Below the pieces are notes generated by a model that was not told where the DNA came from, ran no database searches, and saw only the letters and a program-made list of their open reading frames with translations. From assembly GCA_902728285.1 (NCBI GenBank), contig CACVBU010000824.1:699307-763306 (forward strand): 64,000 nucleotides of DNA, written 5' to 3'. Within the stretch, counting starts at the first letter, position 1. Each line of letters starts with the position of its first letter. This document shows, piece after piece, positions 6,001 through 56,129 of the stretch. The position numbers and the translations under genes are program-made. This DNA comes from Clytia hemisphaerica (taxonomy: Eukaryota; Cnidaria; Hydrozoa; Leptothecata; Clytiidae).

Positions 6001-8139
6001 CCCAATAGGAAGTGTACACTCGTGATGAGTCTCAAAACATCGATGAACACGAGAATGGAATGTTGGAACGCGTGTCACGGCAAATTGTCAACAGGATTGA
6101 TTCTATGGAAGAAAATGTTATAGGCCAACACAAGAAACTACAGGTATGGTAATGCATGCAAACTTCTCATAATTCAGTGCTTCTACTATACATTTTAGAC
6201 TTAAAAAGATCTAACATTGCTCTTGATCTTCATCTCGAATCAAAGTCTTTCTACTGACATGAAAGTAGAGCGACCGTAGTACAGTGGTAGAGCATCCGGC
6301 TACGGTTCACAATTTGTGGGTTCAACCCCCAGCCGGGTCATACCAAAGATTCCCAAAATGGTACTTGATGCCTCTCTGCTTGATGCTCAGCAACTAAGAG
6401 AAGGATCAAGGGTAAGTGGAGAAATCCAGGGAGAAAGAGTGGCGCCCTCCCCTACCTTCGGGTAGATAGCTATCGAAATAGGAGCCTTCGGGTCGCCTCC
6501 GACTGCGGTCGCAGACTTACTTACTTAGAGCGTCCGGCTAAGGTACGCATGGGTTTTATGTTCGACCCCGAGCCGAGTCATACCAAAGATCCCAAAATGG
6601 TACTCGATGCCTCTCGGCTTGATGCTCAGTGACGGCACATGGTTAGGGAAGAAATCTATGGAAAGGCCTTGCGTCTTATTCTATATTCGGGTAGACAGCT
6701 AAAGAAAAGGCAGCTCTCGGGTCGCTCATGACTGTGGTTGCAAATAGTCATCGCATACAGATCAGGAAAAGCGGTTACATCACTGTTTAAGTATTTGAAG
6801 GACTGAAATTCTATTCTTTTTTGAACCCTTTTTAGCCTGTCGCGAGTTTCAGAAATATTTATAAAGTAAGAGTCTGATGTTCTAATATATACTACCCTTT
6901 CCTTTACAGCTTTATCAACAATCAAACGAGGGAGTATTGAACGCTCCTCCCTTGGACATAGTAGACAATGGAGATGGAGGGAACGACGACGGCTTTGGTG
7001 GATCAGGTAGCCTCGGAGGAGGAGGTAGCAGTGGGGATGCAGGCTGTAGAGTGCTGATGAACCGATTCATGGAGATACAGAATCACCAGTATCAAGATGT
7101 CAAGGATGAAATGGACGACATCAAGTCTATGCTGAATGATATCTTTTCCATCATTCAAGGAGGGAGCTTCCAACCTCCTAGTGGTAGTCAGTTGGCACTA
7201 GGCGGTAGCCAGCAACCTCTTTTAGGGATTCACCCACCAGCACCTCAGCCATCAACCCACCTATTGAAATCAGCATCGCTACCAAGAGGCTCACCACATC
7301 CACCACCGATCATGAGACGAAGAGGTTCGGAACCCCCAGCAGAGATATCCTCCCTTCTTAAAAACATCCAAGATCTAGTGAACATCGACCCTGATCAAGA
7401 AAATAATCTTACTTCCAAAAGCACCGGTAACCTGCCTGTCCTACCCTCACCTGTTACAGAACATCCCGCTGATGTTCCCTATCCTATGAGGACTGACCAG
7501 AACCCCTACCCACCAGGAACCCTCCCACCTATTGATGCCAACAACGTGTATCCACCAGCTCACATCCCAATCGGTCAGCCTCCTCCTGCAATGAACCCGT
7601 ACCCACCTGTATCAAAATCATACCCTTCTTTGAACAAGACTGCAGCTTACCCTCCAGATACAAGCATGGCTGCTTACCCACCAGGATCAGGGAGTAACCC
7701 ACCACCCTCACAGAAGACAAGTAGTGCCATCTATCCTCCCTTGACCAATATGGACCGGAAAACATCGTCAAATCAAGAAATCAGTAAAAACAGAGCTAGA
7801 AGCCTCCGCCAACAAGAAGCCAATCCTCAATCGAATCGAACGCCCCCGCCAAGCCGTTTTGGGCGTGATTCGTCTGCTCAGAATACACCAGCTTTGAACC
7901 GTAACACTTTCAACCAGGAACCAAATAGCGACGGATCAACGGCTTCAACCTTAACTCTCAACACATCACAAAATAACGTCGAAGACAATTTAAATGATTA
8001 CGATACAGAAATCATGTATCAAAATAGCGCCCCAAATACGCCAGGGCGTAATAATGGGCGGAGAAGGCGTCGAAAACAACATAAGAAACAATCATCTATG
8101 GATGGTGGTATACCCATGAATTACACGGAAACCATGTAG
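1..8139 (+). CDS. Ankyrin-repeat TRP cation channel, copy A (5' end outside window)
   Basis: Exons 1-49, 872-1212, 2059-2316, 3159-3353, 3960-4140, 4484-4647, 4921-5196, 6009-6143 and 6910-8139 join in phase with GT-AG introns (942 codons, TAG stop). The visible protein starts in the last ankyrin repeats. It then has a basic linker, a pre-S1 block (HPVFQRLLHVKWNLFGKRG) and S1-S2. A long charged S2-S3 linker (YCHPRWPEE, DPWNIFEW), S3-S4 ending FQTLGPFIAIL, S5, a pore loop (MTLMGGFDW), and S6 with NLYIALLSDTF follow. The last about 450 residues are cytosolic, rich in Gly, Pro and YPP motifs, and end near an RRRRRK cluster. This order is that of TRP channels with N-terminal ankyrins (TRPA/TRPV side); I cannot fix the subfamily. 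The likely role is a sensory, Ca-permeable cation channel in the plasma membrane. It is a tandem paralogue of the gene at 11410-21143, with identical lengths for six shared exons. Introns hold many repeats. Confidence 0.88.
384..640 (+). mobile_element. tRNA-derived SINE, family 1, copy 1
   Basis: Positions 386-456 look like a tRNA (GGCTGGGTAGCTCAGTCGGT as the A box, GTGAGTTCGATCCCC as the B box). A non-tRNA body follows and recurs at 2733-2945 (shared: AATCTGATCCAAGCGGTAAG, GGGAGCTGAGAGTAG). The shared body shows a SINE rather than a functional tRNA gene. It lies in an intron of TRP copy A. Confidence 0.75.
626..809. repeat. Inverted-repeat element (TTATCGGGGAAAACTTCGTC arms)
   Basis: The left end (AAGTATACCTTATCGGGGAA) and right end (TTCCCCGATAAGTATAC) are inverted copies. 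Inside are several direct GTCGGGGAAAA and TTCGTCAC units. It abuts the SINE at 384-640 and ends about 60 bp before the next TRP exon. MITE-like; no coding content. Confidence 0.7.
1255..1500. mobile_element. MITE with TTA target duplication, copy 1
   Basis: Terminal inverted repeats (AGGCCGGTCTCCACTTGCGC and its complement) are flanked by TTA on both sides (1252-1254, 1501-1503). Related copies are at 27059-27268 and 47463-47691, each also flanked by TTA. A 3-bp TTA duplication is typical of PIF/Harbinger elements, so that assignment is an inference. A solo right end (GAGGAGACCGACCT) is seen near 1900-1916. Confidence 0.82.
2489..2730. mobile_element. MITE with GGGCTACTTAGACTACACAA end (truncated copy)
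   Basis: It begins with GGGCTACTTAGACTACACAA followed by many AATATATTG units, as does the full copy at 43523-43796. Here the right end is replaced by the SINE copy that starts near 2733. Confidence 0.65.
2733..2945 (+). mobile_element. tRNA-derived SINE, family 1, copy 2 (5'-truncated)
   Basis: It starts inside the tRNA-like head (GGGTTCGATCCCA B box) and carries the same body as 384-640, ending in a GGCTCCCGACTCCGCC-like tail. The A-box half is missing. Confidence 0.7.
3371..3462. repeat. Short hairpin MITE (GCTGGCACA ends)
   Basis: GCTGGCACATAGCGTTGTTT is matched in reverse by AAACAACGTTGTGTGCCAGC, with several AACGTT palindromes between. A relative with the same AACGTT core is near 11040-11115. 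Intron of TRP copy A. Confidence 0.7.
3736..3904. repeat. Long hairpin MITE (AGATCTTATCG ends)
   Basis: Two arms of about 65 bp (TGTTTCGGGAGTATTACAAT / ATTGTAATACTCCCGAAACA) flank a short loop. The outer ends AGATCTTATCG and CGATAAGATCT are exact inverses. No coding content. Confidence 0.8.
4665..4885. mobile_element. MITE family GTAAGAACATCC, copy 1
   Basis: It starts GTAAGAACATCCAAAATTTA and contains the family signatures CTTAACTTTTTGAGTTTTAA and TTTTCATCATTTTTTGAGCA. It ends near GTTTGTTCTTGTAA. Other copies are at 9240-9450, 9720-9905, 44780-44960, 48085-48275 and 58700-59125. It fills the intron before the pore exon of TRP copy A. Confidence 0.7.
5260..5376. repeat. Hairpin MITE (TTTAGGTCTAAACTTATTTC arms)
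   Basis: The left arm TTTAGGTCTAAACTTATTTC and the right arm GAAATAAGTTTAGACCTAAA are exact inverses. The pairing continues through TTTTTATGATTTTTGTTGGC. Confidence 0.82.
6270..6790 (+). mobile_element. Two tRNA-derived SINEs, family 2, head to tail
   Basis: The first unit starts about 6270 with a tRNA-like head (GACCGTAGTACAGTGGTAGA, then GTGGGTTCAACCCCCAGC). Its body contains CATACCAAAGATTCCCAAAA and TTGATGCTCAGC and ends in a CTTCGGGT-rich tail. A second, 5'-truncated unit from about 6527 repeats the B box and body. They fill the intron (6144-6909) that TRP copy B lacks at this point. Confidence 0.75.
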
Positions 8140-9945
8140 AATAATTACAATTGGTTGTACAGTTTTTATACCCAATACATTTACTGCTATTCAATTGGTT
8201 TCTGTAAAGAATTTCTTTCTCGGTTGAAAAGCAGTCAACCAGAGGAGAAAATTGTTCGAAGGGTTTCTCAGCTATTTGAAATCGCTTACTCCAAAACAAG
8301 ATGTGTATAATTTTATAACAAAATTTACAACTATGAAAAAGATATGATGATACGAAAATGCTTAGAATATTCAGCTTACATTTATATTTGAAGGCGAACC
8401 ACCCATCCGGTTAGCTTGTTTGACAATATTATAATTTGAGCTTGATATCGATTTCCAGCTTCATTAAGTAATAAACAAAAAACACTAAAATATTGGATAA
8501 ATTCTTGATGGAAAAAATATAGCTGTCATGGTTCAAATTTCTGATTGAAGAGGAGGACTGTAAGGTCTACAGGGCTGAAAAACTCAACTACTTTTACCAA
8601 AATAGTTTGAAATAAATGTTATTATGTTTGTTGACAGAAATATGGCATTAACAAAAAGGAATATTATTTAGATTTTAACCCACACAACAATATATTTAAA
8701 GAAAATAATTTATTTTTTTCAACATTTATCAACAGGGATGTATAAGAATTTTTTTTTTGTTTTTTGATGACGTTTTTTATTATTGGTATACTTTAAAAAT
8801 ATATATAAGTATTGTATTTTATTTTAAATGATTATTTTTATCTCACACCCCTGTGTCACAGCCCCGTTGGAAAATTTGGCAAAAATGCGCCCCGATGGGA
8901 AAGTACCCTGGAATCATTCGAAATTCAATGTATAAAAATTTGTACCCCAAGACCATCCCCACTGGATTTTTTTACCTTGGAACAATAGAATTTCTACCCC
9001 CATTGGGATTTCGATAGGAATTTTTATCCCCACTTAGGAAAAAAGTCCCACCAGGGCTGTGAGACAGGGTTGATATCTCATAACAATACCATCAAATGGA
9101 GATTTTTTCATATGATAAGCCATGAGGTATAAAAATAATTCGAACGTTTTGAAATGAATCTAAGGTATAGTAGGGTTAAAGTAGCCGTTGTTTTACTAAC
9201 AGTTTTCTTATTGTTTTGATTTTTCTTACTTAATTGACTTCGCCCTATACGTTTTTCGTAATAAGAACATTCAAAATTTTTGACCTTTTATGACTTTTTG
9301 AGTTTCAATCCCTAAAAATTCTCAACATGCTCTTATTTTCACTATTTTGTTGGTATTTTTGCTTATTTTCCTAAGAAATCAGGCGTGTTAGAGTTTTAGA
9401 GTCTGCAAAGCATTAAAATATTCTTTGTTCTTATAGAAAAAACATACTTAAGAAATTCGTATCTCTCTGTGTCAGGGCTAAGTGTTTCATCTGTATAACT
9501 ATTAATTTCAATTATCTTGCTGGAAAAATGCATTGAAAAACAATTTGTTAGACAGATGCATTTGTTACCAACTACCATTACATATTGTATCAAGGCCACT
9601 TAAACACCCTAAATTACAAAATGCCAGGATTCTTAGCTTTATTGTTTCATCGTCTTGTAAATCGATTTCGCAAAAGTTAGAATCCAAAAACTTAGAGGAT
9701 TAATTGTGTTTCACGTGAAACACGTTTCTTTTGTAAGAACAAACTATATAAGAACATAAGGCTTCGATGACCCAAATATTAAGAACAAGTTAAGAACAAA
9801 AAAATACTCATAAAATGGGGAAAATAAGAACATTTTCAGGCTTAAAACTTAAAAATTTAAGAATATCCGAAGACTTTAAAAATGTTGGCTGTTCTTATAA
9901 CTACAAATGTGTTTTTTAATTATTTTTTTTTTTTTTTCTTTTTTC
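8140..9945. other. Intergenic, downstream of TRP copy A
   Basis: I find no gene here. It starts with the A+T-rich 3' flank of TRP copy A. A degenerate element at 8855-9075 has ends CACACCCCTGTGTCACAG and CTGTGAGACAGGGTTG. Two GTAAGAACATCC-family copies lie at about 9240-9450 and 9720-9905. Confidence 0.6.
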
Positions 9946-11409: not shown

Positions 11410-14400
11410 ATGGCGCGTAATAGCCATTCAAAAGAAAAGTCTTTTGGCTATGGTTTGCAACCACCACCAATCATGGGTACAACCGATGACTTTGACAAAC
11501 AAAGCATAATCGATCAATTAAGGAGGTCGATGGTGACGTCAGAAGATACAGGTGGTGGAGGATTGAAATATCGAAATTATTCGTCGAAAAGACGTATTGA
11601 AAAAGATAAAACTGATTATTACCGAAAAGGTTTGTCTATACATTAGCGAGTTCCACTTTGATGATTTTCATAAAATAGAATAAGCCTTTCAAGTGTTTTG
11701 ACGCAAATTCGAGTTTTTCAATACTACATGAGCTTCGAATGTTTAAAGTGACGTCAAAAAATTGAATGTTTGGAGCCCAAGAATCTGGGCTCAAAACATT
11801 CAAAAAAGTTGCAAAGTGGAATAGACGTTACAGCGTAGAAAAAATGCCGCGACGTCTAGTATAGGCTAACTGTACATTGGCTTTCTATTTCACACGAATC
11901 TCCCATCAGGGAATCATCAGCCATTTGGGGGAAATGTATGTATGGAAACTTGTGATGAGTTGGAATCATCTATAGTGTGCACTCTATTTTGTTTACACGT
12001 GAAAACCACTCCCAAGAGAGTTATTGTAATAAGGCTGACAGGGTTTCTACATTGTAGCAAAAAAAACGCACATTAAAAGCCATGGATCATAGTTTGTTTA
12101 AATCGATCGTCAATCTTTTTCCATAAGGAAATTTCCCTCCGATGGCTGATAATGGAAGGTTCACTTAAAATAAGAAAGTCAGTGTTCAGGAAATTCCCGA
12201 TCGTGAAACTATCATTCTACCTTATATGATTTCCAAACAGATCCACTACGGGTCAGATTTAATTTACTTTAACTTCACGTCAAACCAATTCCTCTCTTGT
12301 TATTTCAGGTCCTGCACCAATTGAGGACTCAGACGCTTTAACAAAATCGACCTTGAAAGCGACTTACGGGACTTTAGATTCTGATGTTGAGGATCTAGAT
12401 TTCGAAGAAGTCAGACACCAAAACTCCAAGAATAATTATTATAATAAGCTAAGGATAACTACTAATGAAAGAGGGGACAATTTGGCGAGTTGTCGAGCTT
12501 TGATCGTTTATTTTTCTAAACTCGCCAAAAGTAAGGATGAAGAAGAGCTCATAGATTTAAATTTCGTTGAGTCGCTTTTGGATAATGGGGCAGATATCAA
12601 CTTCCCTGACAAACACGGTCAAACAGCTTTACATGAAATAGCGAGAGGTTGGCATCCAGACGTAGCCCGCTTTGCAATCGAGCATGGAGCTGATTTGAAT
12701 AAATGTGATTCATTTGGGCGGACGCCCCTTCATTTGGCGGCAGCCGTTGATTATGACGACATGGTTCAATTTTTAGTTGACAATGGAGGTATGCAACGAT
12801 TTTCCATTATTTTAATCTTTACCATATGTCTTTCATTGAAATAGGTTGCCACACTCCACCATTGAAAATGGATGACAACGAACCCCGGGGGGGGGGGGTA
12901 CTAGGGTTGCGAGCTGACGGGGGGTGCTGCCCGACTTTCGAACTTTGGACCCTTACCGGGACTAAAAAAGAGAAAACAAAGGAACATTTTGGGAATTTTA
13001 CGATCCTTAGCGGGACAAATTTGACCAAATTTCGATCTTTCAGGAGGTAAAAAGTCGAAATTTTCCTATTTTCCCGACCTTTAGTGGGACTGAAATTTGA
13101 TTTTCTGATTTTTCCAACTCTTAGCAGGACTTTGGAAGTCCAAAAAAGGTACCCTTAAGGGCGGCACATACCGTACCCTCCATTTGCCTAAGTACCCCAC
13201 CCCCTCCCCCGGGCAACGAACATGAAGTACCTTAAGTTAAAAAATGGATGACTACATTACTAACCTTAGCATGAGTTATCACAGGCATAACATTTTAAAT
13301 AAATTACCAAATTCCTATAGTTAATAACAAATTACCACATCCTTAACATTTTGCAAATATATGATATTGAAATTTGAGACACTTATTGCTGAAAATGACT
13401 TTCCACATACCTGACATTGAAAATGATATAGCACATCCCTACTAATGAAACAATTCAAACATCTCTAATTTTGAAAAACGTTACTACGTACAAACACCTG
13501 AAAACGTTTTACCACAAACATAATCATCAATGAACATGAACCAGCATATTCCAAAAATCAAAAATGAATTACCACAGTCCCAACTTCGAAAATGAATTAC
13601 CACAACCCTAACTTTGAAAATGAAATACCACAGTCCTAACTTTGAAAATAGATTACCACAGCCTTAACTTTGAAAATGAATTATCACAGTCCTAACTTTG
13701 AAAATAGATTATCACATTGTTAACTTTGATAATGAATTACCACAACCCTAACTTTGAAAATTAATTACCACAACCCTAACTTTGAAAATTAATTACCACA
13801 GTCCTAACTTTAATAATAGATTACCACATTGTTAACTTTGAAATGAATTACCATAGCCCTAACTTTGAAAATGAATTACCACATTGTTAACTTTGAAAAT
13901 GAATCACCACATACATAATACTAAAGAATACATTTTCAATCAATTCATTGTGTCAAATTCCCATAAACCTTCCTTTTACTTTTCATTCCATAGCTGATCT
14001 TGGTGCAAAGACATACGGCGAAGAGCAAACAGCAATGCATTATGCAGCCAAGAACAATGCAGCTTCTTCAATCAAAGTCATGTTGAGATTGGGAGCAGCT
14101 ATCAATGATCGAGATTATAAAAAGAGAACACCCCTCTTCGTTGCAGCTGAGACTGGTAAACAGTTTTTTTTGTAATTATGTCGACTCTCTACGGCCAACA
14201 ATTTTCTACGAATTAGAGAAATATTCGAATTACAGAGAGTAATTTAAACCACTTTTCAGCTGAGACGACCTATTTTTTAGTTCGAATTGCAGAAAGATTC
14301 GAATAAAAGAGCTTCGAATTAGAGAGAGTCGACTGTATTGCATTTCCATGCGCAGAGACGAGTTGCATCCATTTAAGAAATTGTGTTTTTATATATATAA

Positions 14401-17400: not shown

Positions 17401-20400
17401 ATCGCAAATAATGTTTTTCTTTGTTTATAGATTTCATACTCTGTTGTCTTAACGCTAATCTTCACACGTATTCTGGCTGTTGCTACAAGTAATATGGCCA
17501 TCGCAGAATTCCATCCTAAAGTTTATGCGTTGGGTTTGATTGTAATTTGGTTGCGTTTCATGAGATCGTGTCGTGTGTTTCAAACGCTTGGTCCTTTCAT
17601 TGCTATTTTGGGTAAGTTGTTATTTTTAAAGGTGGAGTTATTTCACAACAAAAGTCTTAATGAAGCATTTCTACCTCAACATTCTCAATAGCTTGAACTG
17701 CTTTGACCACTGTATAGATATTCATTGCTATCCTTGGTAAGCTATATAGTTTAAAAGTTTAGAATTTGCTTTAAGTAACTATTGCTTCTACTCTGTTGAT
17801 TAGTAGAAAGGATTCGATCACAGATTCGCACCTCACTGGACTGTGCTCGAATCCCAAGCACTTCCAAAGAGTGTTAGGGAATCACTACTTTTAGCTATAA
17901 CTTTTATGAAAACTAGCTTTCTTATCTTAAAAAAAGACCATCAGAATCCGCTGATTTGTTGGAGATAATTATATCTCCGAAAATGATTCTCAAAAGAGTT
18001 TTTCTGATTGATGTTGTTCTTTGTACTAAAATATCTAGCCATTGTAATTCCTATACCTTTTTATTCACCAGGCTCAGTCGTTGTGGACACAGCCAAATTT
18101 TCATTTTTGTTGTTCGAGTTTTTCATCCCTTACACCGTTGGATTCTGGATAATCTTTGGAGGACCTGAAAATGCTTCCAAGATGATCAAAAACGACTGGG
18201 AGAATTTCAATGACCTGACCTTCAGTGTTTTTGGGGTGAGTTTGTGTTGTTAATTCTTTGTTTGGATTTTTCTAGATGTGAGGTCACGTTGAAATTTGTA
18301 ATTCGATTGCTAATGAAAGGACCTTTAAAATCCGGAGCTTGTTCAACTATTTATGCCATAAAATTTTTTTCTAAAGTTCGTCTCACTTTCTATACCCTAT
18401 TCTCACAGATCCAATGGGACCCCTTCCCACTGGAAAAATTGACCAAAACATCGTCCCCGGTAGAAATTCATTCTCCAATTTTTGTCCCCACTGACAATTA
18501 TCAAATAAACCAATTCTCACTGCAAAGTATTATGCAATTTTTTCATCCCACTGAATTTTCTGATTCGATAACAAAAGATAAGAAATCCCCAGTCATAAAA
18601 AATATAGGAATGTCAATCCCCATCGAGTTTCAGTCCGTTATTTTTTTCCCCACTGGCTGAAAAGATCCTACCGGTTCTGTGAGAAGAGGGTGTCTTTTTT
18701 AACAATTTCTCAGCACCCATTTTAATTTATGGCATTTTAAAAAACTATTCACCGTTGGAAAGATATTTAAAAGAAGAGTAATCTAAAAGATAAGAGATAT
18801 TTGAGATGTTGAAAAAGAAGAAGAAACCAAACACAAATTGAACAAAATTTGAAATCAGTAAGGTTAAAAGATTCTAAAGATTATCTATCTATCTATTAGA
18901 TTATTCTCCTTGGAAATATCTTTCCAACATGGTGTATAGCTTTTCAATATAGCATAAATTCGTGGTGTGAAATGGTTAAAAAAGTGTTCATATTTTGAAA
19001 CAGACTTCAGTACTTCAAAATATTCTTTCTTGATTTAGATGACTCTAATGGATAACTATGATTTCAATGGATTGGTTGCAGTTGATCGTTTGATGGCTCA
19101 AATCTTATGTGGAAGTTATTTAGCACTAGCCGGAGTGGTCTGCTTAAACATGTACATCGCCCTGCTATCAGATACATTCGCTCGTGTTTACTCCCAGGCT
19201 AAAGCAACAGCTGTCATGCAACAGGCTAAGACAATAATTGCGCTGGAAGGAAAACTTAATAAATTTCACAAATCGAAATATGCTCATTACATGCTTCGAG
19301 AGTGCTCGCCTCAGGTTAGTTTAACACTTAATCCGGAAAGATTTCGCTACAACTGGGGAGGGGGTACTGGATTTGCGAGGTAACAGATATGTCCGACCCA
19401 AAGTTCAAAAATCGACTCTTTGAGAGAACGAATTTGGACGGTTTTGTGATCCTTTGAGAGGTTTTTTTTCCTCCAATTTTTAGCCCAAAATTACAAGATT
19501 CCATGACCCTTTGAGGGTAGATTTTTCGATATTTCGTAATTTTGGGATCCTTTTAGAGATTTTATTGATAATCTATCGTTTTTGTACCCCTTTGAGAGAC
19601 TTTCGTGGGCTTACAAAAGGAAACCTTATGGCTCGCTAAACTCACGTTTTCTGTATCTGTATCAAATGATGATTGAAAAAAAAGGTTTGCATATAAAAGT
19701 TGTTATCGATTACCCAGATGAAAATGAGCGAATAATACGAAGACGGGTTAAAAAAAGTGGATCTAACTGTTAGAATCCTTATATTATTCTATTCTAAGTA
19801 AAGCTCTGGATCTTCTTTTTACACAGGAAGTATACACGCGTGATGAATCAAGCGAAGATGGCAGCTATGAAGGAGAGCAATTTGATCGCATCGGGCGCCA
19901 AATTGCAAAACGAATCGACACCTTGGAGGAGAACATCATTCTGCGATACAACCGTAACAGCGGTAGAAAACAAAAAAGCAGTGACAATCAAAACAACAAA
20001 ACAGAATCTGGTCAAAAGAAGAATTTCCCGAACCGCCTTTCTTATTCTTCTTTCATGGATGGCGACAACTCAAGTAATGACAGCGATGGCGGACCGCCCC
20101 CTTTCGGAGAGGCGGTTGGTAGAGGTTCATCGGGTTGTAAACAACAGATCAAAAAAGTAGCAGAATTCCAACGGGAACAATTTAATGACCTACAAGATGA
20201 GATTGCCAATATCAGATCAATTTTATCGAATATTTCTTCGTTATTGTTAGCACAGCAAGGGGATAACCAAGCAGTGGTTGCTTTACCAAAATTGAATGCA
20301 GCCCCTTCAGAATTTGCCTATCCACCGCCAGATGCTCCCTTTACCCCATCTGCTATTGGCTACCCACCACCAGAAGCCCCTTTTACTCCATCTGCTATCG

Positions 20401-21143
20401 GCTACCCACCCCCTGCTACCTCCTTTTCGAAGTCTCCTGCCCTCTATCCACCAACTGTTGACGATAACAACAACTCAATATTTGAGTCACAGTCAACCCT
20501 GGTCGAATCGCCTACTCAAGCGGTGACCCCACCTCCAGAGATAGCTGACATTATCAATTCAGTAGGCTCCCTCATGAATGCTGATCAAACAGAAACCAAC
20601 CAGTTTACTCACAAGAAGACCCCTCCCTCCAGTGACGGGACAGCCACTCCAGTCATGAAACCGAAAACAAATCCTCGTCCTGTACCTACTCCTCGAGGCA
20701 GAACACAGAGCAATGGAACCCATCCACCACGACCTTCCCCAAGTCTTGCTCGATCCATCTCAACCAACAGCCCTCTCTACCCACCTTTGGTTGAAGACCA
20801 AGATTTCGGCTTCCCGCCACCTTCGATCAACGTATCCACCCCTGTTATCAACAAGAAACGCTTCAACGAAAGCTTTGATGAAGACCTTCGAAGCCAAACC
20901 CTACCTTTGATTGATCGCTCGAAAGGCCCCAATAGAAGTAAATCTGTATCCAACGTTGCTGTTATGGATTCTCCTCTCCTTGATGCTGATGATGCATCGG
21001 GATATCAATCTCTACCAAGATCATCAAGTGGACGAAGGCGGAGACGAAAGAAAACGCCTTCACCTCACCCAAATAAAAATGATTATCAATTGTTCTCAAA
21101 TGGAAATGGATCAGTCATGTCAAAATCAACTGAAATGCTTTGA
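11410..21143 (+). CDS. Ankyrin-repeat TRP cation channel, copy B (complete, 1197 aa)
   Basis: Exons 11410-11629, 12309-12788, 13994-14155, 14497-14837, 15146-15403, 16145-16339, 17431-17611, 18072-18235, 19039-19314 and 19827-21143 join in phase. The ATG lies 2 nt after a splice acceptor, so a noncoding first exon is likely upstream. Domains by residue: variable N-terminus 1-155; about five ankyrin repeats 156-330 (GRTPLHLAAA, TPLFVAAET); basic linker with RERKEQRERRK to 401; HPVFQRLLHVKW pre-S1; S1 about 437-457; S2 about 468-487; charged linker 488-552; S3-S4 553-612; S5 about 618-640; filter MTLMDNYDF at 668-676; S6 about 688-712; helix with ARVYSQAKATAVMQQAKTI. The tail has a coiled-coil-like block, a 15-residue repeat (YPPPEAPFTPSAIG) and an RRRRRKK patch. 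TRPA/TRPV-like cation channel; subfamily open. It fuses in one exon what copy A has in two. Confidence 0.92.
11645..11868. mobile_element. MITE family GCGAGTTCCACTTTGA, intact copy
   Basis: It starts GCGAGTTCCACTTTGATGAT and contains AAGCCTTTCAAGTGTTTTGA. It has a central inverted pair around GAGCCCAAGAATCTGGGCTC and ends GACGTCTAGTATAGGCTA. Further copies are at 55690-55912 and split around 49925-55320. This copy shows the empty site of the large foldback insertion at 49981-55129. It lies in intron 1 of TRP copy B. Confidence 0.82.
13240..13930. repeat. Intronic minisatellite, about 28-bp unit (AACTTTGAAAATGAATTACC)
   Basis: More than fifteen degenerate copies of a unit reading TTGAAAATGAATTACCACA plus CCCTAAC. 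It fills the 3' half of intron 2 of TRP copy B, ending about 60 bp before the next exon. The same unit occurs at 15440-16010 in intron 5 of the same gene. Confidence 0.85.
15440..16010. repeat. Intronic minisatellite, second block of the same unit
   Basis: Degenerate copies of TTGAAAATGAATTACCACATCC with CCTAACA spacers, matching the array at 13240-13930. It starts shortly after the exon ending at 15403 and fills most of the intron. Confidence 0.8.
16395..16497. repeat. Fragment of the TCTCACAGACCC-type MITE
   Basis: CCCCACTGGAATTATT repeats and a right end CACTGAGACAGGGGTG resemble the elements at 18400-18693 and 39768-40066. Confidence 0.5.
16802..17228. mobile_element. MITE (CATGATATGCACCA ends) with another MITE inside it
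   Basis: Outer arms CATGATATGCACCACTGCAA and TTGCAATGATGCATATCATA are inverted, as in the palindromic copy at 57010-57248. Inside, at about 16879-17133, a second inverted pair (GCTGTTTTTTTATAAGAAT / ATTCTTATAAAAAAAAGCG) marks another element with GTAAGAACATCC-family-like ends. TRP copy B, intron 6. Confidence 0.7.
18400..18693. mobile_element. MITE with TTCTCACAGA / TCTGTGAGAA ends
   Basis: Left end ACCCTATTCTCACAGATCCA and right end TTCTGTGAGAAGAGGGTG are inverted. The body holds many TCCCCACTGG units. The same type is found at 21255-21720 and 39768-40066. Confidence 0.72.
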
Positions 21144-48800: not shown

Positions 48801-51800
48801 ATGAGAAACTACCGAAAATACAAAATGCTCAAAATTATATTTTTTTTCGAAGAAATCATGCTGCTCTGTCTAGACCAAAATGTAAGGCGCCACCATTATT
48901 CTCTTTCATTCGTTTACAGGCTTGACGAGAAGATTTTGAACAGCACAGAACGATTTACGAAATGGAAACGCACTATCAAAAGGACTGGGTAAGGATGACT
49001 TATTACTGATCATTTTAAAATTGGTCTTTAGTCGTAAAATATTGATATGTCTCTGGTTTTAACTAATCGAGCACTCTTATAGCCTTGATTTGCCACACTT
49101 GTTCTGATTTTGCTCCTGGTTGGACAACTTTGTAGACCACTTTAGAGTTGGTGTTGCACGTTATTATCCACTATTAATGGAACATAATTTTAATATTGAT
49201 AGGTCTTTAGTCTGAAAGCTAAGGAATTTGAATTCTAAATATCAAACAAAGCAGTCTTGACTTGCATTTACTACTATAGGAATTATCAAAATTTAGCAGT
49301 CAGCAAACCCCTTTTTTGATCATTTTAAAATTGGTCTTCAGTCTGAAAGCTAAGGAATTTGAATTCAAAGTAACAAACCAAGAAGTCTGATTGACATTCA
49401 TGATATCTAAATTTGGCGGATACCAAATAGCTTCCCTTTTTTGCAAACTCTGTAACAAAAAAAAAAATATATCTTCGGTTTCCACTTTAACACTCACAAT
49501 TAAGCCTAGTTTTAATTTCATCTTCTTTATTTCTTAGTGGGTTTGCGGCAGCAGTGGACTCACTTACTCAAGTATTAGGTAATTTATCTTTTTCCGTTTC
49601 ATCTTTAATAGTGATTTTATTGAATTTGTTTTCCTTTTTTTACGAGAGGGAGGGGGTATACCCGAATGAAGACTGGTGCTCTGTTTTCAACATACTCAAA
49701 ATCATCGAACGTTTACTTGTTTTTTATCTGATATTCCGATGGCGGATTGGCGGCCGCCCACGCTAAAGCTCTAAAGGAGCGGGCCAATTTCCCATGGCGT
49801 AAACCTATAAATATTTCGGTTGGACCCGCCAATCCCCGAAAACGAGGGCTGGGTTACCAGACCTCCCGCTGCAAAATTCTTGACGCGGTCTAGCGAGCAC
49901 CTCACTAAAAACCGGGATTTTTCATCTCGTTTCTTAGTGAGTTCCACTTTGACGATTTTCGAAAAATAGAAGCCTTTCAACGTTGTTACTAAAAGAGGTA
50001 ACGAGTGGTAACGAGTGGTAACGAGTGGTAACGAGTGGTAACGATGTGGTAACGAGTGGTAACGAGGTGGTAACGAGGTGGTAACGAGTGGTAACGATGT
50101 GGTAACGAGGTAACGAGTGGTAACCAGTTGAAAACGGTGGCCCTAAGTCTCCAAATTTGAATTTCTCGATTCTGGTGGTTTTGCAACAGATGCTGATGGC
50201 TCTTGAGGTTCTGCAGCAGGACCTGGCAGATCTGGTGAATGTGCAGTAGGAATTGGAGATTTAGGCGAATGTTATATTGGAGTTGATGGTTCTGGTGAAT
50301 GTGATGGTAAACTTGGTTGTTTGGGTGAATGAAATGGTGGAATTGATGGTTCTGGTGAATGTGAATCAAAGAATGATGGTTCTGGAGGTTCTGCATTAGG
50401 AGTTGGCGATTCTGGGGAATGTGCATCAGGAGTTGGTGATTCTGGTGAATGTGCAGCAGGAGTTATTGGTTCTGGTGAATGCAATGGTGGAGTTGGTGGT
50501 TCTGGTGAATGCAATGGTGGAGTTGGTGGTTCTGGTGAATGTACACCAGGAGTTGGTGGTTCTGGTGAATGTACAGCAGGAGTTGGTGGTTCTGGTGAAT
50601 GTACAGCAGGAGTTGGTGCTTCTGGTGAATGTACAGCAGGAGTTGATGGTTCTGGTGAATAAAATGGTGGAGTTGGTGGTTTTGGTGAATGTGCAGCAGG
50701 AGTTGGTGGTTCTGGTGAATGTGCAGCAGGAGTTGGTGGTTCTGTGAATGCAATGGTGGAGTGGTGGTTTGGGGTGGGCAGGAAGTTGGTGGTTCTGGTG
50801 AATGGTGGTGGATTTGGTGGTTCTGGTGAATGCATGGTGGAGTTGGTGGTTCTGGTGAATGCAATGGTGGGAGTTCTTGGAGTGGTTCTGGTGAATGTAC
50901 AGCAGGAGTTGGTGGTTCTGGTTGAAGTCAGGAAGTTGGTGGTTTCTGGTGAATGTACAGCAGGAGTTGATGGTTCTGGTGAATAAAATGGTGGAGTTGG
51001 TGGTTTTTGTGAATGTGCAGCAGGAGTTGGTGGTTCTGGTGAATGTGCAGCAGAAGTTGGTGGTTCTGGTGAATGCAATGGTGGAGTTGGTGGTTCTGGT
51101 GAATGCAATGGTGGAGTTGGTGGTTCTGGTGAATGTGCAGCAGGAGTTGGTGGTTCTGGTGAATGCAATGGTGGAGTTGGTGGTTCTGGTGAATGCAATG
51201 GTGGAGTTGGTGGTTCTGGTGAATGCAATGGTGGAGTTGGTGGTTCTGGTGAATGTACAGCAGGAGTTGGTGGTTCTGGTGAATGTACAGCAGGAGTTGG
51301 TGGTGCTGGTGAATGTACAGCAGGAGTTGGTGATTCTGGTGAATGCGCAGCAGGAGTTGGTGGTTCTGGTGAAGGCAATGGTGGAATTGGTGGTTCTGGT
51401 GAATGTGCAGCAGGAGTTGGTGGTTCTGGTGAATGTGATAAGGGAGTTGATTGTTCTGGTAAATGTACAGCAGGAGTTGGTGGTGCTGGTGAATTTAATG
51501 CTGGCGTTGATGGTTCTGGTGAATGTGATAGTGGCGTTAATCGTTTAGGCGAATACAATGCCGGTGTTGATGGATCTGGTGAATGCAATGGTGGAGTTGG
51601 TGGTTCTGGTGAATGTGCATCAGGAGTTGGTGATTCTGTTGAATGTGCATCAGGAGTTGGTGGTTCTGGTGAATGCAATGGTGGAGTTGGTGGTTCTGGT
51701 GAATGTGCAGCAGGAGTTGGTGGTTCTGGTGAATGTGCAGTAGGAGTTGGTGGTTCTGGTGAATGCAATGGTGGAGTTGGTGGTTCTGGTGAATGTACAC

Positions 51801-54800
51801 CAGGAGTTGGTGGTTCTGGTGAATGTGCAGCAGGAGTTGGTGGTTCTGATGAATCCAATGGTGGAGTTGTTGATTTTGGTGAATATGCATCAGGAGTCGA
51901 TTGTTCTGGTGAATGTACAGCAGGAGTTAGTGGTTCTGGTGAATGGGATAGTGGAGTTGATGATTCTGGTGAATATAATGTTGATGTTGATGGATCTGGT
52001 GAATGCAATGGTGGGGATGGTCATTCTCGTGAATGCAATGGTGGGGAGGGTGGGGACAGTGAATGTGATGGAGTTGATGATTCTGGTGAATGTGCATTAG
52101 GAGTTGATGGATCTGGTGAATGCAATGGTGGAGTTAATGGTTCTGGAGAATGTGATGGTGAAGTTAATGGTTCTGGTAAATGTACATTATTAATTGATGA
52201 CCTTGAGCTTACTCTTAGGTTCCAAATAAACGCCCCCTTGTTAATTTTCCGAGAATTGTCTGACACTGCATGACCTCTTTGTTATTTTATACACTTTTGT
52301 CCATTTGACCGAGAATCTTTCCCATCCCCCACTCTAGTGGAAATATTCCTATTCCCATATTCCTATTCCCATTTGATTGACGTCATTTGGCAAAATGGTC
52401 AAACCATTGAAAAATTGGATGCTCTTTCAATCCCAATCCCATTTGAAACATTAAACTTTTTTAGATTCTTTTAAAGCTTTCCTTGGTATTGTTTTTACTT
52501 TGATGTTTCTTCTTGTTTCAACATTTTCCTTTTGAGTCATTAGGTGTGTTCATTAAGAGTTCTTTTAGAGGATATGAGAATTTCAAATCGCGGTGACCCA
52601 ATAATCTTTTGGATAAACTTTTTATTCAGTTTATTTGAAATAATTATTTCATCTCTACCCTGAAAAATGGCTTTTGAATAAAATTTTATGTTTAGTTTAC
52701 GTGGAAACATGAAAAATATGATTAACTGATAATATGAAATTCTCCGGAATTCAAGTACGATATGATATGGTTAAGTCATTGTTGTTGCTTCCCTACAAAA
52801 ACTGTTCACGAGGCTATGGCCTTTTTTTATACATATTTATTTTGTTAGGTATTTTATACGATAACATATGGTTTATTTTCTGAAGTTTTCTTAACTACGT
52901 TATTTTTAGGGAGAAAAAGTTTCCTCGAATTCTAGCTTTGCAAATTTCGATTTTTATTGATAGAAATTTTCATTTCAAAATTGAATATTGCGGGAATTCT
53001 CTCAAAGATATGCTTATATTTTTATATTTTGTTCCAAACGATGAAGAATATTTTGTTTAAAAAGAAACCTGAGAGATATTTTACTTGTGTTAAAATATTT
53101 TGTCATTGTATTCAAACATCTAATCAAAACGCTGTAGTTGGTTTAAAGAATGTTGTTGAATTGATGTTAAAAAACGCAACTTCACGCAAAGCATTGAACA
53201 GTACTTATAATCGTTATGTAATCGCCATTAGAGCTCATTTAATCTAGATAGTTTCACATTGAGCGATCATTAACTAGCAAAAAAAATATCAGATTCACCA
53301 TAAATGTATTTTCATTTCATGAATAACATCTCAATAACAATTTATCAGAATATGAACTCCTGCTGCGAATTCACCACAACCATCAACTCCACCATCACAT
53401 TCACCAGAACCATCAATTCCACCATCCCATTCACCAGAACCATCAACTCCAATATCACATTCATCAGAACCACCAACTCCACCATTGCATTCACCAGATC
53501 CATCAACACCGGCATTGTATTCGCCTAAACGATTAACGCCACTATCACATTCACCAGAACCATCAACGCCAGCACTAAATTCACCAGCACCACCAGCTCC
53601 TGCTGTACATTTACCAGAACAATCAACTCCCTTATCACATTCACCAGAACCACCAACTCCTGCTGCACATTCACCAGAACCACCAATTCCACCATTGCCT
53701 TCACCAGAACCACCAACTCCTGCTGCGCATTCACCAGAATCACCAACTCCTGCTGTACATTCACCAGCACCACCAACTCCTGCTGTACATTCACCAGAAG
53801 CACCAACTCCTGCTGTACATTCACCAGAACCACCAACTCCTGCTGTATATTCACCAGAACCACCAACTCCACCATTGCATTCACCAGAACCACCAACTCC
53901 ACCATTGCATTCACCAGAACCACCAACTCCTGCTGCACATTCACCAGAAACCACCAACTCCACCATTGCATTCACCAGAACCACCAACTCCACCATTGCA
54001 TTCACCAGAACCACCAACTCCTGCTGCACATTCACCAGAACCACCAACTCCTGCTGCACATTCACAAAAACCACCAACTCCACCATTTTATTCACCAGAA
54101 CCATCAACTCCTGCTGTACATTCACCAGAACCACCAACTCCTGCTGTACATTCACCAGAACCACCAACTTCTGCTGTACATTCACCAGAACCACCAACTC
54201 CTGCTGTACATTCACCAGAACCACTAACTCCACCATTGCATTCACCAGAACCACCAACTCCACCATTGCATTCACCAGAACCACCAACTCCACCATTGCA
54301 TTCACCAGAACCACCAACTCCTGCTGCACATTCACCAGAACCACCAACTCCACCATTGCATTCACCAGAACCACCAACTCCTGCTGCACATTCACCAGAA
54401 CCACCAACTCCTGCTGCACATTCACCAAAACCACCAACTCCACCATTTTATTCACCAGAACCATCAACTCCTGCTGTACATTCACCAGAAGCACCAACTC
54501 CTGCTGTACATTCACCAGAACCACCAACTCCTGCTGTACATTCACCAGAACTACCAACTCCTGGTGTACATTCACCAGAACCACCAACTCCACCATTGCA
54601 TTCACCAGAACCACCAACTCCACCATTGCATTCACCAGAACCAATAACTCCTGCTGCACATTCACCAGAATCACCAACTCCTGATGCACATTCCCCAGAA
54701 TCGCCAACTCCTAATGCAGAACCTCCAGAACCATCAATCTTTGATTCACATTCACCAGAACCATCAATTCCACCATTTCATTCACCCAAACAACCAAGTT

Positions 54801-56129
54801 TACCATCACATTCACCAGAACCATCAACTCCAATATAACATTCGCCTAAATCTCCAATTCCTACTGCACATTCACCAGATCTGCCAGGTCCTGCTGCAGA
54901 ACCTCAAGAGCCATCAGCATCTGTTGCAAAACCACCAGAATCGAGAAATTCAAATTTGGAGACTTAGGGCCACCGTTTTCAACTGGTTACCACTCGTTAC
55001 CTCGTTACCACATCGTTACCACTCGTTACCACCTCGTTACCACCTCGTTACCACTCGTTACCACATCGTTACCACTCGTTACCACTCGTTACCACTCGTT
55101 ACCACTCGTTACCTCTTTTAGTAACAACGGCCTTTCAAGTGTTTTGACGCAAATTCGATTATTTTGCTACTGCAAGAGCTTCGAAAATTAAAAGTGACGT
55201 CAAAAAATCGAATGTTTAGAGCCCGAAAACCCGGGCTCAAAACATTCGAAAAAGTCGCAAAGCGGAATAGACGTTAATTGCGTAAAAAACGCGGGTGACG
55301 TCTTGTATAGGCTAGACGCGGTCTTGCAAAATCCCGTAACCTAAACCTTCCAGATGTTGAAAATTTTCCCGACCTTCAGAGCTTTAGCGTGTCGTATGAA
55401 AATCTCACCATCTGGGTGCCAGATAAACCTGTTTTAAGATCTGTACACTCTTAAGGTCTACATAAATATCTTTATAAATTATTAGTAGAATGTCTTTGTG
55501 TATGTGCTAAATACTTTGCTACAACCCCGAAGAGGCCAGAGAAAATTTCTAAAATGGTTGACTAATCGACGTAATCCTCTAAGAATCCTTGCACCAATTA
55601 TCTTGTCAGTTAACCTCTTCCGTACATCCCTGTACTTCGCCACTCTTCGTAGCGAGCACCTCACGAAAAACCAGGATTTTCCATCTCGCTTCTTAGCGAG
55701 TTTCACTTTGACGATTTTCGAAAAATAGAAGCCTTTCAAGTGCTTTGACGAAGATTCGATTTTTTAGCTACTGCAGGAGCTTCAAAAATTTAAAGTGACG
55801 TCAAAAAATCGAATGTTTAGAGTCTGAAAACCCGGGCTCAAAACATTCGAAAATTTCGCAAAGTGAAATAAACGTTAATTGCGTAGAATAAACGCGGTCG
55901 ACGTCTAGTATAGGATACTCTCTTCGCCGTTAGAAATGGAAGATGATTGAATAAGTTTGCACCATCGTTTCTCAAACCATTCGATCATCACCACAAGCAT
56001 CAGTAAAATTTCTGCTGCAATAATCCTCTCTTTTCAATTTACTAAAATTATTTAATTTGTTCAGATGCTTTCCATCGAGCAAGAAGAAGAATGCTTTCAG
56101 CGAGATCTACACTACCTGTGGTCACGTGA
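36880..56129 (+). CDS. MKS1: MKS1, B9-domain protein of the ciliary transition zone (11 coding exons, 540 aa)
   Basis: Exons 36880-36941, 37398-37506, 38367-38506, 40142-40326, 40838-41001, 41754-42149, 42796-43054, 44107-44239, 48920-48988, 49538-49578 and 56065-56129 join in phase (1623 nt). Family signatures in order: YRSHDPPKNF near the N-terminus; EEEKEEIMIHWQEKLFS; NQRIFTYIDSD; then the B9 domain, about residues 300-478 (FEYDSLYVVYTLDLP, FSYPFQFQLQYTW, WQRHRIEGYGYCQLP, RRFFIGG, TGTLVLRI); and a C-terminal VLDAFHRARRRM. Human MKS1 is 559 aa, so the model is full length. MKS1 works with B9D1, B9D2 and tectonic proteins in the transition-zone complex. Introns 8 (4.7 kb) and 10 (6.5 kb) hold an antisense gene and a foldback element. 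The last four exons are small and easily missed, but phase and the HRARRRM end support them. Confidence 0.93.
38634..39458. repeat. Inverted-repeat element, about 0.8 kb (TACCGGGTG ends)
   Basis: TACCGGGTGGGCCACAAAAA with AAGTTTCTCTCTTT at the left is answered by AAAGAGAGAAACTTTTTTGT with GGCGCACCCGGTA at the right. Arms of at least 150 bp can be followed (ACTTTTGATCTAATAAACC and inverse). MKS1 intron 3. Confidence 0.85.
39768..40066. mobile_element. MITE with TTCTCACAGACCCGG / GTCTGTGTGAAAGGGTG ends
   Basis: Same layout as 21255-21720 without the nested insertion (TGATATTACTATGTTTTTAT, TTTATTTGATTATTTTCGAG). MKS1 intron 3. Confidence 0.72.
43523..43796. mobile_element. MITE with AGGGCTAC / GTAGCCCTT ends
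   Basis: Inverted ends AGGGCTACTTAGACTACACA and GTGTATGTAGCCCTT enclose many AATATATTG units, some as inverted pairs. A truncated relative is at 2489-2730. MKS1 intron 7. Confidence 0.75.
43800..44060. repeat. C-run repeats (ACCCCCCTTAGGTAAG)
   Basis: About ten degenerate units of ACCCCCCTTAGG spread over 260 bp at the end of MKS1 intron 7, next to the exon at 44107. Confidence 0.7.
44187..44490 (+). repeat. Four tandem copies of a 76-bp exon-plus-splice-donor segment
   Basis: Units start at 44187, 44263, 44339 and 44415. Each contains the last 53 bases of MKS1 exon 8 (TTTCCACTGGAACTCTGG to CTACAATCAAA), the donor GTAAGT and 20 bp of intron (AATGGGCTTTTTC). Copies 2-4 are almost identical to each other and carry ATGAAC where copy 1 has ATAAAC. 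Only the first donor continues the MKS1 reading frame; read-through meets TAA at once. Confidence 0.93.
44515..44740. repeat. Repeats of CCCCCTGGATATCC
   Basis: Seven or eight spaced copies of ACCCCCTGGATATCC in MKS1 intron 8. Short open frames across them are by-products. Confidence 0.7.
44780..44960. mobile_element. MITE family GTAAGAACATCC, degenerate copy
   Basis: The body signatures TTCTTAACTTTTTTGAGTTC and GAAGCCTTTTAAAATGTTC are recognisable; the ends are poor. Confidence 0.5.
46199..46966 (-). CDS. Predicted secreted protein of unknown family, antisense inside MKS1 intron 8
   Basis: 255 codons without an intron. The ATG at 46966 sits 5 nt after a good acceptor (ATCTTTTTAG), which suggests a leader intron. 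The protein starts with a signal peptide (MAGKLEFSLTILAMFTLCLV), then a moderately polar region with NVTIIMTVAPLDSK and alternating hydrophobic strands (KCTLIWVYS, QILLYSNQDD, KIIVLCISFPTC). About seven Cys residues are present. The strand spacing recalls a vWA/Rossmann-like fold, but no DxSxS metal site is seen. Transcription is opposite to MKS1, whose intron encloses the whole gene. I do not recognise the family. An upstream in-frame extension lacking an ATG was not used. A retrogene origin is possible. Confidence 0.6.
   Translation of the reverse strand: MAGKLEFSLTILAMFTLCLVDGSDPQSGGIEGESLSPYCLRIKNVTIIMTVAPLDSKMTSEYTGQTIIENIEEEFYLLVKALLREKCTLIWVYSKTHNSLRRITDRNYQSLFAYDFMDVTGLEMQGTFNDPVQLSNLLDNLPESNDKVEQILLYSNQDDIPLQSFPFYVCRTFPTNGGIEKHVSDELEHLQKRKKTKIIVLCISFPTCNLQPHYPLCALSKKWLRKDNIVEVNMKSGEDEFDIFRQTFDLIRSLS
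47463..47691. mobile_element. MITE with TTA target duplication, copy 3
   Basis: Ends AGGCCGGTCTACACTTGCAC and TTTCAAGTGGAGACCGGCCT, flanked by TTA (47460-47462, 47692-47694). Family of 1255-1500, to which its middle (TTGAATACATTTCAACTTTT) is close but reversed. Confidence 0.82.
48085..48275. mobile_element. MITE family GTAAGAACATCC, reverse-oriented copy
   Basis: AGATTCGATGCCCAAATTGT, CTCAAAAAGTTAAGAACATC and TTGGATATTCTTATAA are the complement-strand signatures of the family. MKS1 intron 8. Confidence 0.6.
48267..48890. repeat. Two adjacent tandem duplications next to MKS1 exon 9
   Basis: 48267-48480 holds two copies of a 107-bp unit (AATAAAGGCGTACCATAAGT). 48553-48890 holds three copies of a 110-130-bp unit (AAGATGAGAAACTACCGAAA, TTCGAAGAAATCGC, CTGTCTAGACCAAATGTAAG). 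The array ends 30 bp before the exon starting at 48920. Confidence 0.85.
49972..49980 (+). repeat. 9-bp target-site duplication, left copy (GCCTTTCAA)
   Basis: Identical to 55130-55138. The unoccupied MITE copies have GCCTTTCAA once. Confidence 0.92.
50272..52266 (-). pseudogene. Left-arm open frame: decapeptide repeat (SPEPPTPAVH), broken
   Basis: Roughly 60 copies of a ten-residue unit HSPEPPTPxx (xx = AA, AV, PL) read leftward, ending IPPFHSPKQPSLPSHSPEPS. A single in-frame TGA (52020-52018) interrupts the frame, and between about 50990 and 50740 the frame slips and returns. No ATG opens it; the first codon of the open stretch is GTG. Because the unit is 30 bp, other frames and the opposite strand are also open (for example VLVNVQQELV), so openness alone is no proof of coding. 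The Pro/Glu frame is the one conserved in both arms. Confidence 0.5.
53485..54838 (+). pseudogene. Right-arm open frame: decapeptide repeat (SPEPPTPAVH), frameshifted
   Basis: The mirror image of the left-arm frame, reading rightward. An extra A near 53949 (CCAGAAACC) shifts the frame, which continues from 53966 to the TAA at 54836-54838. The last about 60 residues match the left arm, apart from SIFDSH versus SFFDSH. No ATG precedes it. It is shorter than the left arm by several repeat units. Confidence 0.5.
55130..55138 (+). repeat. 9-bp target-site duplication, right copy (GCCTTTCAA)
   Basis: Pairs with 49972-49980. Confidence 0.92.
55690..55912. mobile_element. MITE family GCGAGTTCCACTTTGA, second intact copy
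   Basis: Runs from TTCTTAGCGAGTTTCACTTT to GACGTCTAGTATAGGATA, with the central inverted pair around AAAACCCGGGCTC. It shows GAAGCCTTTCAAGTGCTTTG uninterrupted. MKS1 intron 10, directly after the split copy; upstream DNA shared with 49888-49930 (GCGAGCACCTCAC) suggests the two copies are a local duplication. Confidence 0.8.

Follow-up and report, generated by a model that had tools for sequence, protein, structure and literature searches.

The segment 49981–55129 of our window, the whole 64,000-nucleotide stretch of Clytia hemisphaerica DNA (contig C566) analysed here, is a transposon of 5,149 bp. Our analysis indicates with high confidence that it is a non-autonomous, internally deleted cut-and-paste element of the Mutator/IS256 clan, which carries Foldback-type arms, sits in a MITE with a 9-bp target duplication and is probably mobilised in trans. 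The kind of element is known, Tm1 and Drosophila FB being comparable, and the member is new, in a cnidarian. In the papers searched, we found no description of a Clytia foldback element or of a cnidarian foldback or Mutator-like element with tandem-repeat TIRs. Its point of interest is the occurrence of related two-tier arms across families.

Structure and insertion site of the window element

The two inverted arms are 100% identical over their outer 200 bp and 99.7% identical over 600 bp, and each is built of tandem repeats in an outer tier of 10-bp units and an inner tier of 30-bp units (Table 1), the architecture by which Foldback elements are recognized. The word GTAAC[CG]AG occurs 22 times in the window, every time inside the two outer tiers; 11 lie in 49981–50140 and none in 50141–54969. 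The 9-mer GCCTTTCAA stands in direct orientation at 49972 and 55130, with further copies at 11684 and 55731. When the flanks are joined with a single 9-mer, the resulting sequence aligns unbroken across the junction to the uninterrupted MITE copies at 55650–55914 (90%, 2 gap positions) and at 11643–11868 (84%, 9 gap positions). The earlier note had proposed a foldback-type element with inverse ends, two repeat tiers and a 9-bp duplication, its empty site preserved in two uninterrupted MITE copies; end comparison, TRF and the joined-flank alignments, together with the copy family and transposase gene described below, bear this out.

Table 1 Features of the window element and its empty-site controls (window positions)
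Feature	Position	Strand	Evidence
Left target-site duplication GCCTTTCAA	49972..49980	.	Flank comparison, empty site
Left terminal motif CGTTGTTACTAAAAGAGGTAACGAG	49981..50005	+	End comparison; genome matches to motif
Left outer tier, 13 tandem 10-bp units GGTAACGAGT	49997..50128	+	TRF, 13.0 copies
Left inner tier, ~64 tandem 30-bp units	50279..52184	+	TRF, 63.8 copies
Residue of full element's transposase 5' side	52190..52440	+	Within C193 9110-8827, ~92%
Internal-deletion junction; C193 ~2839-8826 absent	52440..52441	.	Alignment to C193
Residue of full element's transposase 3' flank	52441..53350	+	Within C193 2838-1830, ~92%
Right inner tier, ~51 tandem 30-bp units, inverted	53355..54879	-	TRF, 50.8 copies
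Right outer tier, 13 tandem 10-bp units, inverted	54982..55113	-	TRF, 13.0 copies
Right terminal motif, inverted	55105..55129	-	End comparison
Right target-site duplication GCCTTTCAA	55130..55138	.	Flank comparison
Uninterrupted host MITE copy, empty-site control	55650..55914	+	Aligned to joined flanks
Second uninterrupted host MITE copy, empty-site control	11643..11868	+	Aligned to joined flanks

By eye, the host MITE (49891–49980 plus 55139–55311 around the element; 55650–55914; 11643–11868) contains a long near-palindrome around CCCGGGCTC. Elsewhere in the window, a host gene at 35018–35941 matches, at 99% identity, a EukProt protein bearing TCONS, the Clytia prefix, and a pair of Pro-rich ORFs (6937–8139, 400 residues; 19923–21143, 406 residues), similar in layout and with Arg/Lys-rich C-terminal parts, are perhaps paralogues of a host gene.

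A multicopy family with target-site duplications

A scan of the 417-Mb C. hemisphaerica genome for the 25-base terminal motif, with at most 2 mismatches, yielded 176 matches; the reversed control pattern yielded 0. Duplications of 8 or 9 bp were found in 26 of the 30 end pairs tested (15/15, 8/11 and 3/4 by set), these pairs being 26 plus-then-minus pairs among the first 100 of the 176 ends and 4 first-look candidates (40 of 239 candidates were scored in that first look). The loci L009, L010, L013, L021, L022 and L025 each came without both ends; later pairing joined L021 to L022 and L025 to L067. The flanks of pairs C118 and C417 are reverse complements, which suggests that the two contigs carry a single site; with this site counted once, duplications accompany 25 of 29 independent sites, 9 bp long at 16 and 8 bp long at 9. 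With equal base frequencies, 8 bases at a set place would match exactly by chance once in 65,536 cases. The other insertions with such flanks that the earlier note had proposed looking for are therefore present, and the element is multicopy and target-duplicating, as Foldback elements are. An arm holds between 8 and 73 units of 30 bp (14 two-ended loci and the window copy).

The end pairs that show no duplication are C242, C281, C285a and C523. In the last two (C285:240548–241895 and C523:452803–454113), 1.3-kb inverted end pairs have flanks of which one is the inverted copy of the other, and these flanks are similar between the two loci; they may be parts of another repeat, the end pairs being nested in another inverted repeat or artefactual. 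Such arm palindromes with mutually inverted flanks are what an assembly artefact, that is, a fold-back chimeric read or a misjoin, would produce, and a nested inverted element would look alike. The window element, however, has direct 9-bp flanks and arms that differ in 30-bp copy number, and direct duplications recur at 25 of 29 independent sites; we therefore reject an artefact for the window copy, giving it an exceedingly small chance.

At C248:76597–101449 (locus L068 covers 76400–81200), 12 terminal motifs follow one another on the same strand in 11 steps of 2,260 bp (one of 2,252), in a tandem array that includes one arm end and of which two compared units are 100% identical. It is possible, by analogy with Tetris, that this array is a satellite seeded by the element. 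An arm within a tandem array also fits a reading in which the repeats act as DNA or RNA structure (a hairpin, a source of siRNA or a satellite seed) and spread by arm recombination or gene conversion without a transposase, as does the greater likeness of arms within an element (mean 0.967, 16 elements) than between elements (0.942, 480 pairs). Target duplications and an empty site nevertheless require transposase-like insertion, and a transposase gene sits between the same ends; structure-driven spread is thus very unlikely to account for the family.

Transposase-bearing copies and the origin of the window element

The copy at C193 spans 10,529 bp between the family's ends, is flanked by the duplication ATCTCTCAG and carries a transposase gene of 851 open codons, split into five exons by GT-AG introns, on the strand reading toward the C193 left arm. 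It is the longer, transposase-encoding relative for which the earlier note had suggested a search. The ends of the C250 copy, with duplication AATCCATCT, are 21.9 kb apart; of the four longer exons of its gene, three contain gaps and two have a shortened open frame. A third transposase copy, C860, is 98–99% identical in two frames. The C250 and C193 gene regions are 98.8% identical over 3.7 kb, from which the recent activity proposed in the earlier note is plausible, and the family may be active at present. In L021 (~7000–7140, minus strand), a Pro-rich tandem repeat, TNPPPVN, with a 21-bp unit lies near the N-terminus of the transposase.

Fourteen of the 15 short two-ended copies, that in the window included, are 99–100% covered by C193, and L012 is covered to 92%. 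Capture of host-gene DNA was considered, and with this coverage none is seen in the 14 copies; the sole uncovered stretch of at least 80 bp among the 15 is the 363 bp at L012 element positions 1600–1962, not found in C193. Because arm repeats match easily and make up much of each copy, the centre of the window copy is the closest proof of its relation to C193. This centre consists of two C193 stretches joined at 52440 and lacks ~5,990 bp of C193 (~2839–8826), nearly the whole transposase gene, so that the window copy is an internal-deletion derivative. We infer that it moves in trans, with the transposase of a fuller copy.

The transposase belongs to the Mutator/IS256 clan

Relatives, the predicted fold of a homologue and duplication size support assignment of the transposase to the Mutator/IS256 clan. 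P0003, a related Clytia transposase of 419 residues, is matched at 100% over residues 9–419 on contig C624, and five open frames of the Clytia genome both match P0003 and exceed the PF10551 (MULE) cut-off. The spliced C193 protein itself scores 13.7 bits against PF10551, below the cut-off of 27.6, which is a model threshold and no biological criterion. Among 17 aligned relatives, 3 match PF10551 (best E 0.0041), and the hhalign probability between the transposase homologue profile and PF10551 loci is 5.4%, for 19 of 20 fetched loci (at least 130 open codons) drawn from 91 genome matches. No PHD or FLYWCH match was obtained in the transposase with Pfam at E ≤ 1; a Cys/His pattern in its C-terminal exon corresponds to no Pfam family.

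A Foldseek search with the predicted model of the homologue P0010, 38% identical to the C193 frame, returned as closest solved fold the ISCth4 transposase of the IS256 family (6xg8, 6xgw, 6xgx), at low TM-scores (0.22 by query, 0.34 by target). IS256 elements make 8–9-bp duplications, and ISCth4, a bacterial element with short simple ends and no foldback arms, resembles the Clytia element in duplication size as well as in this closest solved fold of a homologue. The transposase is thus homologous to the MULE/IS256 type, and the 8–9-bp duplications at 25 of 29 sites fall within the 8–11 bp expected of the clan. The Mutator affinity suggested in the earlier note accordingly stands on five bridging frames, an ISCth4-like predicted homologue fold and duplication size, with the C193 protein below the MULE cut-off. 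When solved structures were searched by sequence with the alignment of homologues, the best 60 of 575 matches were antibody chains, which we took as spurious. The 91 PF10551 matches in the Clytia genome, at least five of them bridging to the foldback lineage, indicate that more typical Mutator-like families coexist with it.

Related arms beside related transposases

Two further families carry related arms beside related transposases. The transposase of family 2 (C915, C624) is 50% identical to that of the family described above (family 1). At C915, its inverted repeats of 472 bp are 96% identical; their ends read GGTTGTTACTAAAACGAGGAACGAG, after which comes a 10-bp array whose core is GTAACCAG, and the C624 arm is like that of C915. 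Family 2 has a 149-bp repeat, and no 30-bp tier resembling that of family 1 was found in its C915 and C624 arms. The C915 element shows no target duplication, and a second partial copy adjoins it.

The transposase of family 3 (C936) is 58% identical to that of family 1. Its array of 35 units of 30 bp differs from the family 1 unit at 6 of 30 bases (the closest of 20,000 shuffles differed at 10), and a GGTAAC 10-bp array follows. The contig stops inside ACTAAAAG, so only part of the terminal motif is visible. The parts of C936 examined were positions 1–4600, in which no arm was found, and those beyond 8999, where the far end has an arm ~6 kb away from the transposase; the link between the two is thus one of position alone.

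Families 50–58% identical in transposase thus share, as far as their ends are visible, the terminal motif and a 10-bp array with a GTAAC core, and one also shares a homologous 30-bp array. By sequence comparison, the transposase appears to be accompanied across families by the terminal motif and the 10-bp tier, as expected of its recognition site; we infer that the 10-bp tier is a transposase-recognition array. A precedent is Galileo, for which transposase-binding sites within arm tandem repeats are described (PMC3688188). The chances seem to us about even that a Clytia Mutator-clan lineage inherits a bipartite foldback arm together with its transposase, the outer tier being a co-evolving putative binding array and the inner one another module that is conserved.

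Coding potential of the arms

The earlier note had also read the arms as encoding a Pro/Glu-rich decapeptide-repeat protein. The 145-codon ORFs that it reported at the two outer ends are both present and differ at one residue (H/Q); they are out of frame with the Ser-Pro-Glu-Pro-Pro-Thr-Pro decapeptide, and other frames on both strands are also open over long stretches. A repeat protein read from either frame, as a second protein of the element or spliced to the transposase, would agree with a run of 533 open codons of the decapeptide frame in the C193 left arm, with one frame kept throughout in 21 of 36 arrays (both C193 arrays included), with a frame free of stops over ~1.17 kb in the C936 array and with the entry 'Minisatellite in Cterm' for Rehavkus in Table 1 of PMC6446971.

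Codon, indel, open-frame, cross-family and protein-search tests did not uphold coding arms. Our codon test covered 1,420 units from 36 arrays, which after units containing N were dropped gave 426 types and 273 inferred single steps. The decapeptide frame had 40 synonymous steps against 55.4 expected, that is, fewer (P(≤S) = 0.006), and none of the six frames had a significant synonymous excess (lowest P 0.16). Of 41 true array indels, 26 break the frame and 15 keep it, where chance alone would keep about one third in frame (the 15 were tallied from the listing, and spacings of 60 or 90, from units missed by the scan, were left out). The 145-codon frame is open in 7 of 32 arms and meets a stop in the family 3 unit, and every one of the six base changes that separate the family 1 unit from that of family 3 alters the decapeptide. 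A protein search with the 533-residue arm frame gave no array-wide match and two weak partial ones covering 7–8%, and the transposase frame has its own stop, which precedes the arm by ~900 bp. We conclude that a stop-free unit repeated with a period of 30 suffices to account for the open frames; we consider coding arms quite improbable, and the arms look more like DNA signals than like a protein gene.

Comparison with known elements

Drosophila FB elements have 10-bp outer repeats and 9-bp duplications. Their arms resemble those in Clytia: in FB, end sequences of 467–479 bp are followed by variable numbers of inner 27–31-bp repeats in opposite orientations (PMC7642927), and the repetitive arms are frequently rearranged (PMC8277862). 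FB belongs to a different phylum, and the likeness is one of described structure. Its class is disputed, being given as Tc/mariner in Repbase (PMC8277862) and as P-element-related (PMC7642927), and some foldbacks have been grouped with Mutator (PMC3169594).

Of the systems described, the Mutator/Foldback family Tm1 of root-knot nematodes (PMC3169594) comes closest to the Clytia element. In both, composite arms of tandem repeats vary in length, duplications are mostly 9 bp, and short derivatives occur alongside copies with a Mutator-type transposase. The Tm1 repeat unit is ~14 bp and its 7-bp outer motifs are asymmetric, whereas the Clytia family has symmetric ends and two tiers; the 496-residue Phantom-type transposase of Tm1 has FLYWCH and MULE domains (PMC3169594), neither of which lies above the Pfam cut-off in the 851-residue spliced Clytia protein.

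Rehavkus likewise makes 9-bp duplications and has one transposase gene and a minisatellite before its 3' TIR (PMC6446971). It is listed for arthropods and annelids and with a PHD finger (PMC6446971); in the Clytia transposase, Pfam gave no PHD match at E ≤ 1. The Clytia element has repeats at both ends and duplications of 8 or 9 bp. Galileo and Tetris share foldback-like arms (PMC3688188, PMC4079207). Unlike the Clytia element, Galileo belongs to the P-element superfamily (PMC3688188), and Tetris is apparently non-autonomous with 220-bp repeats; its arm repeats seeded satellite DNA (PMC4079207), a likeness to the C248 array. Inversions and satellite arrays are among the effects of foldback elements (PMC7642927, PMC4079207).

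Implications

In the mechanism that we favour, transposase from a fuller copy, such as that at C193, would most likely act in trans on the window element, recognizing it by its terminal motif and outer 10-bp array, cutting the ends and inserting the element with an 8–9-bp stagger. The inner 30-bp arrays would be minisatellites that expand and contract and encode no selected protein, possibly serving as a spacer or secondary binding array.

Foldback elements cause unstable alleles; what their repeat-built arms do is poorly understood, and many lack a transposase. Clytia is a laboratory animal. Because a single genome contains short copies, a copy whose transposase gene is open and two related families, with arms that are related but diverged, the role of each tier can be compared with its presumed enzyme. 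If a Clytia lineage does inherit its two-part arm together with its transposase, why foldback elements build their arms from repeats would become testable in a laboratory jellyfish.
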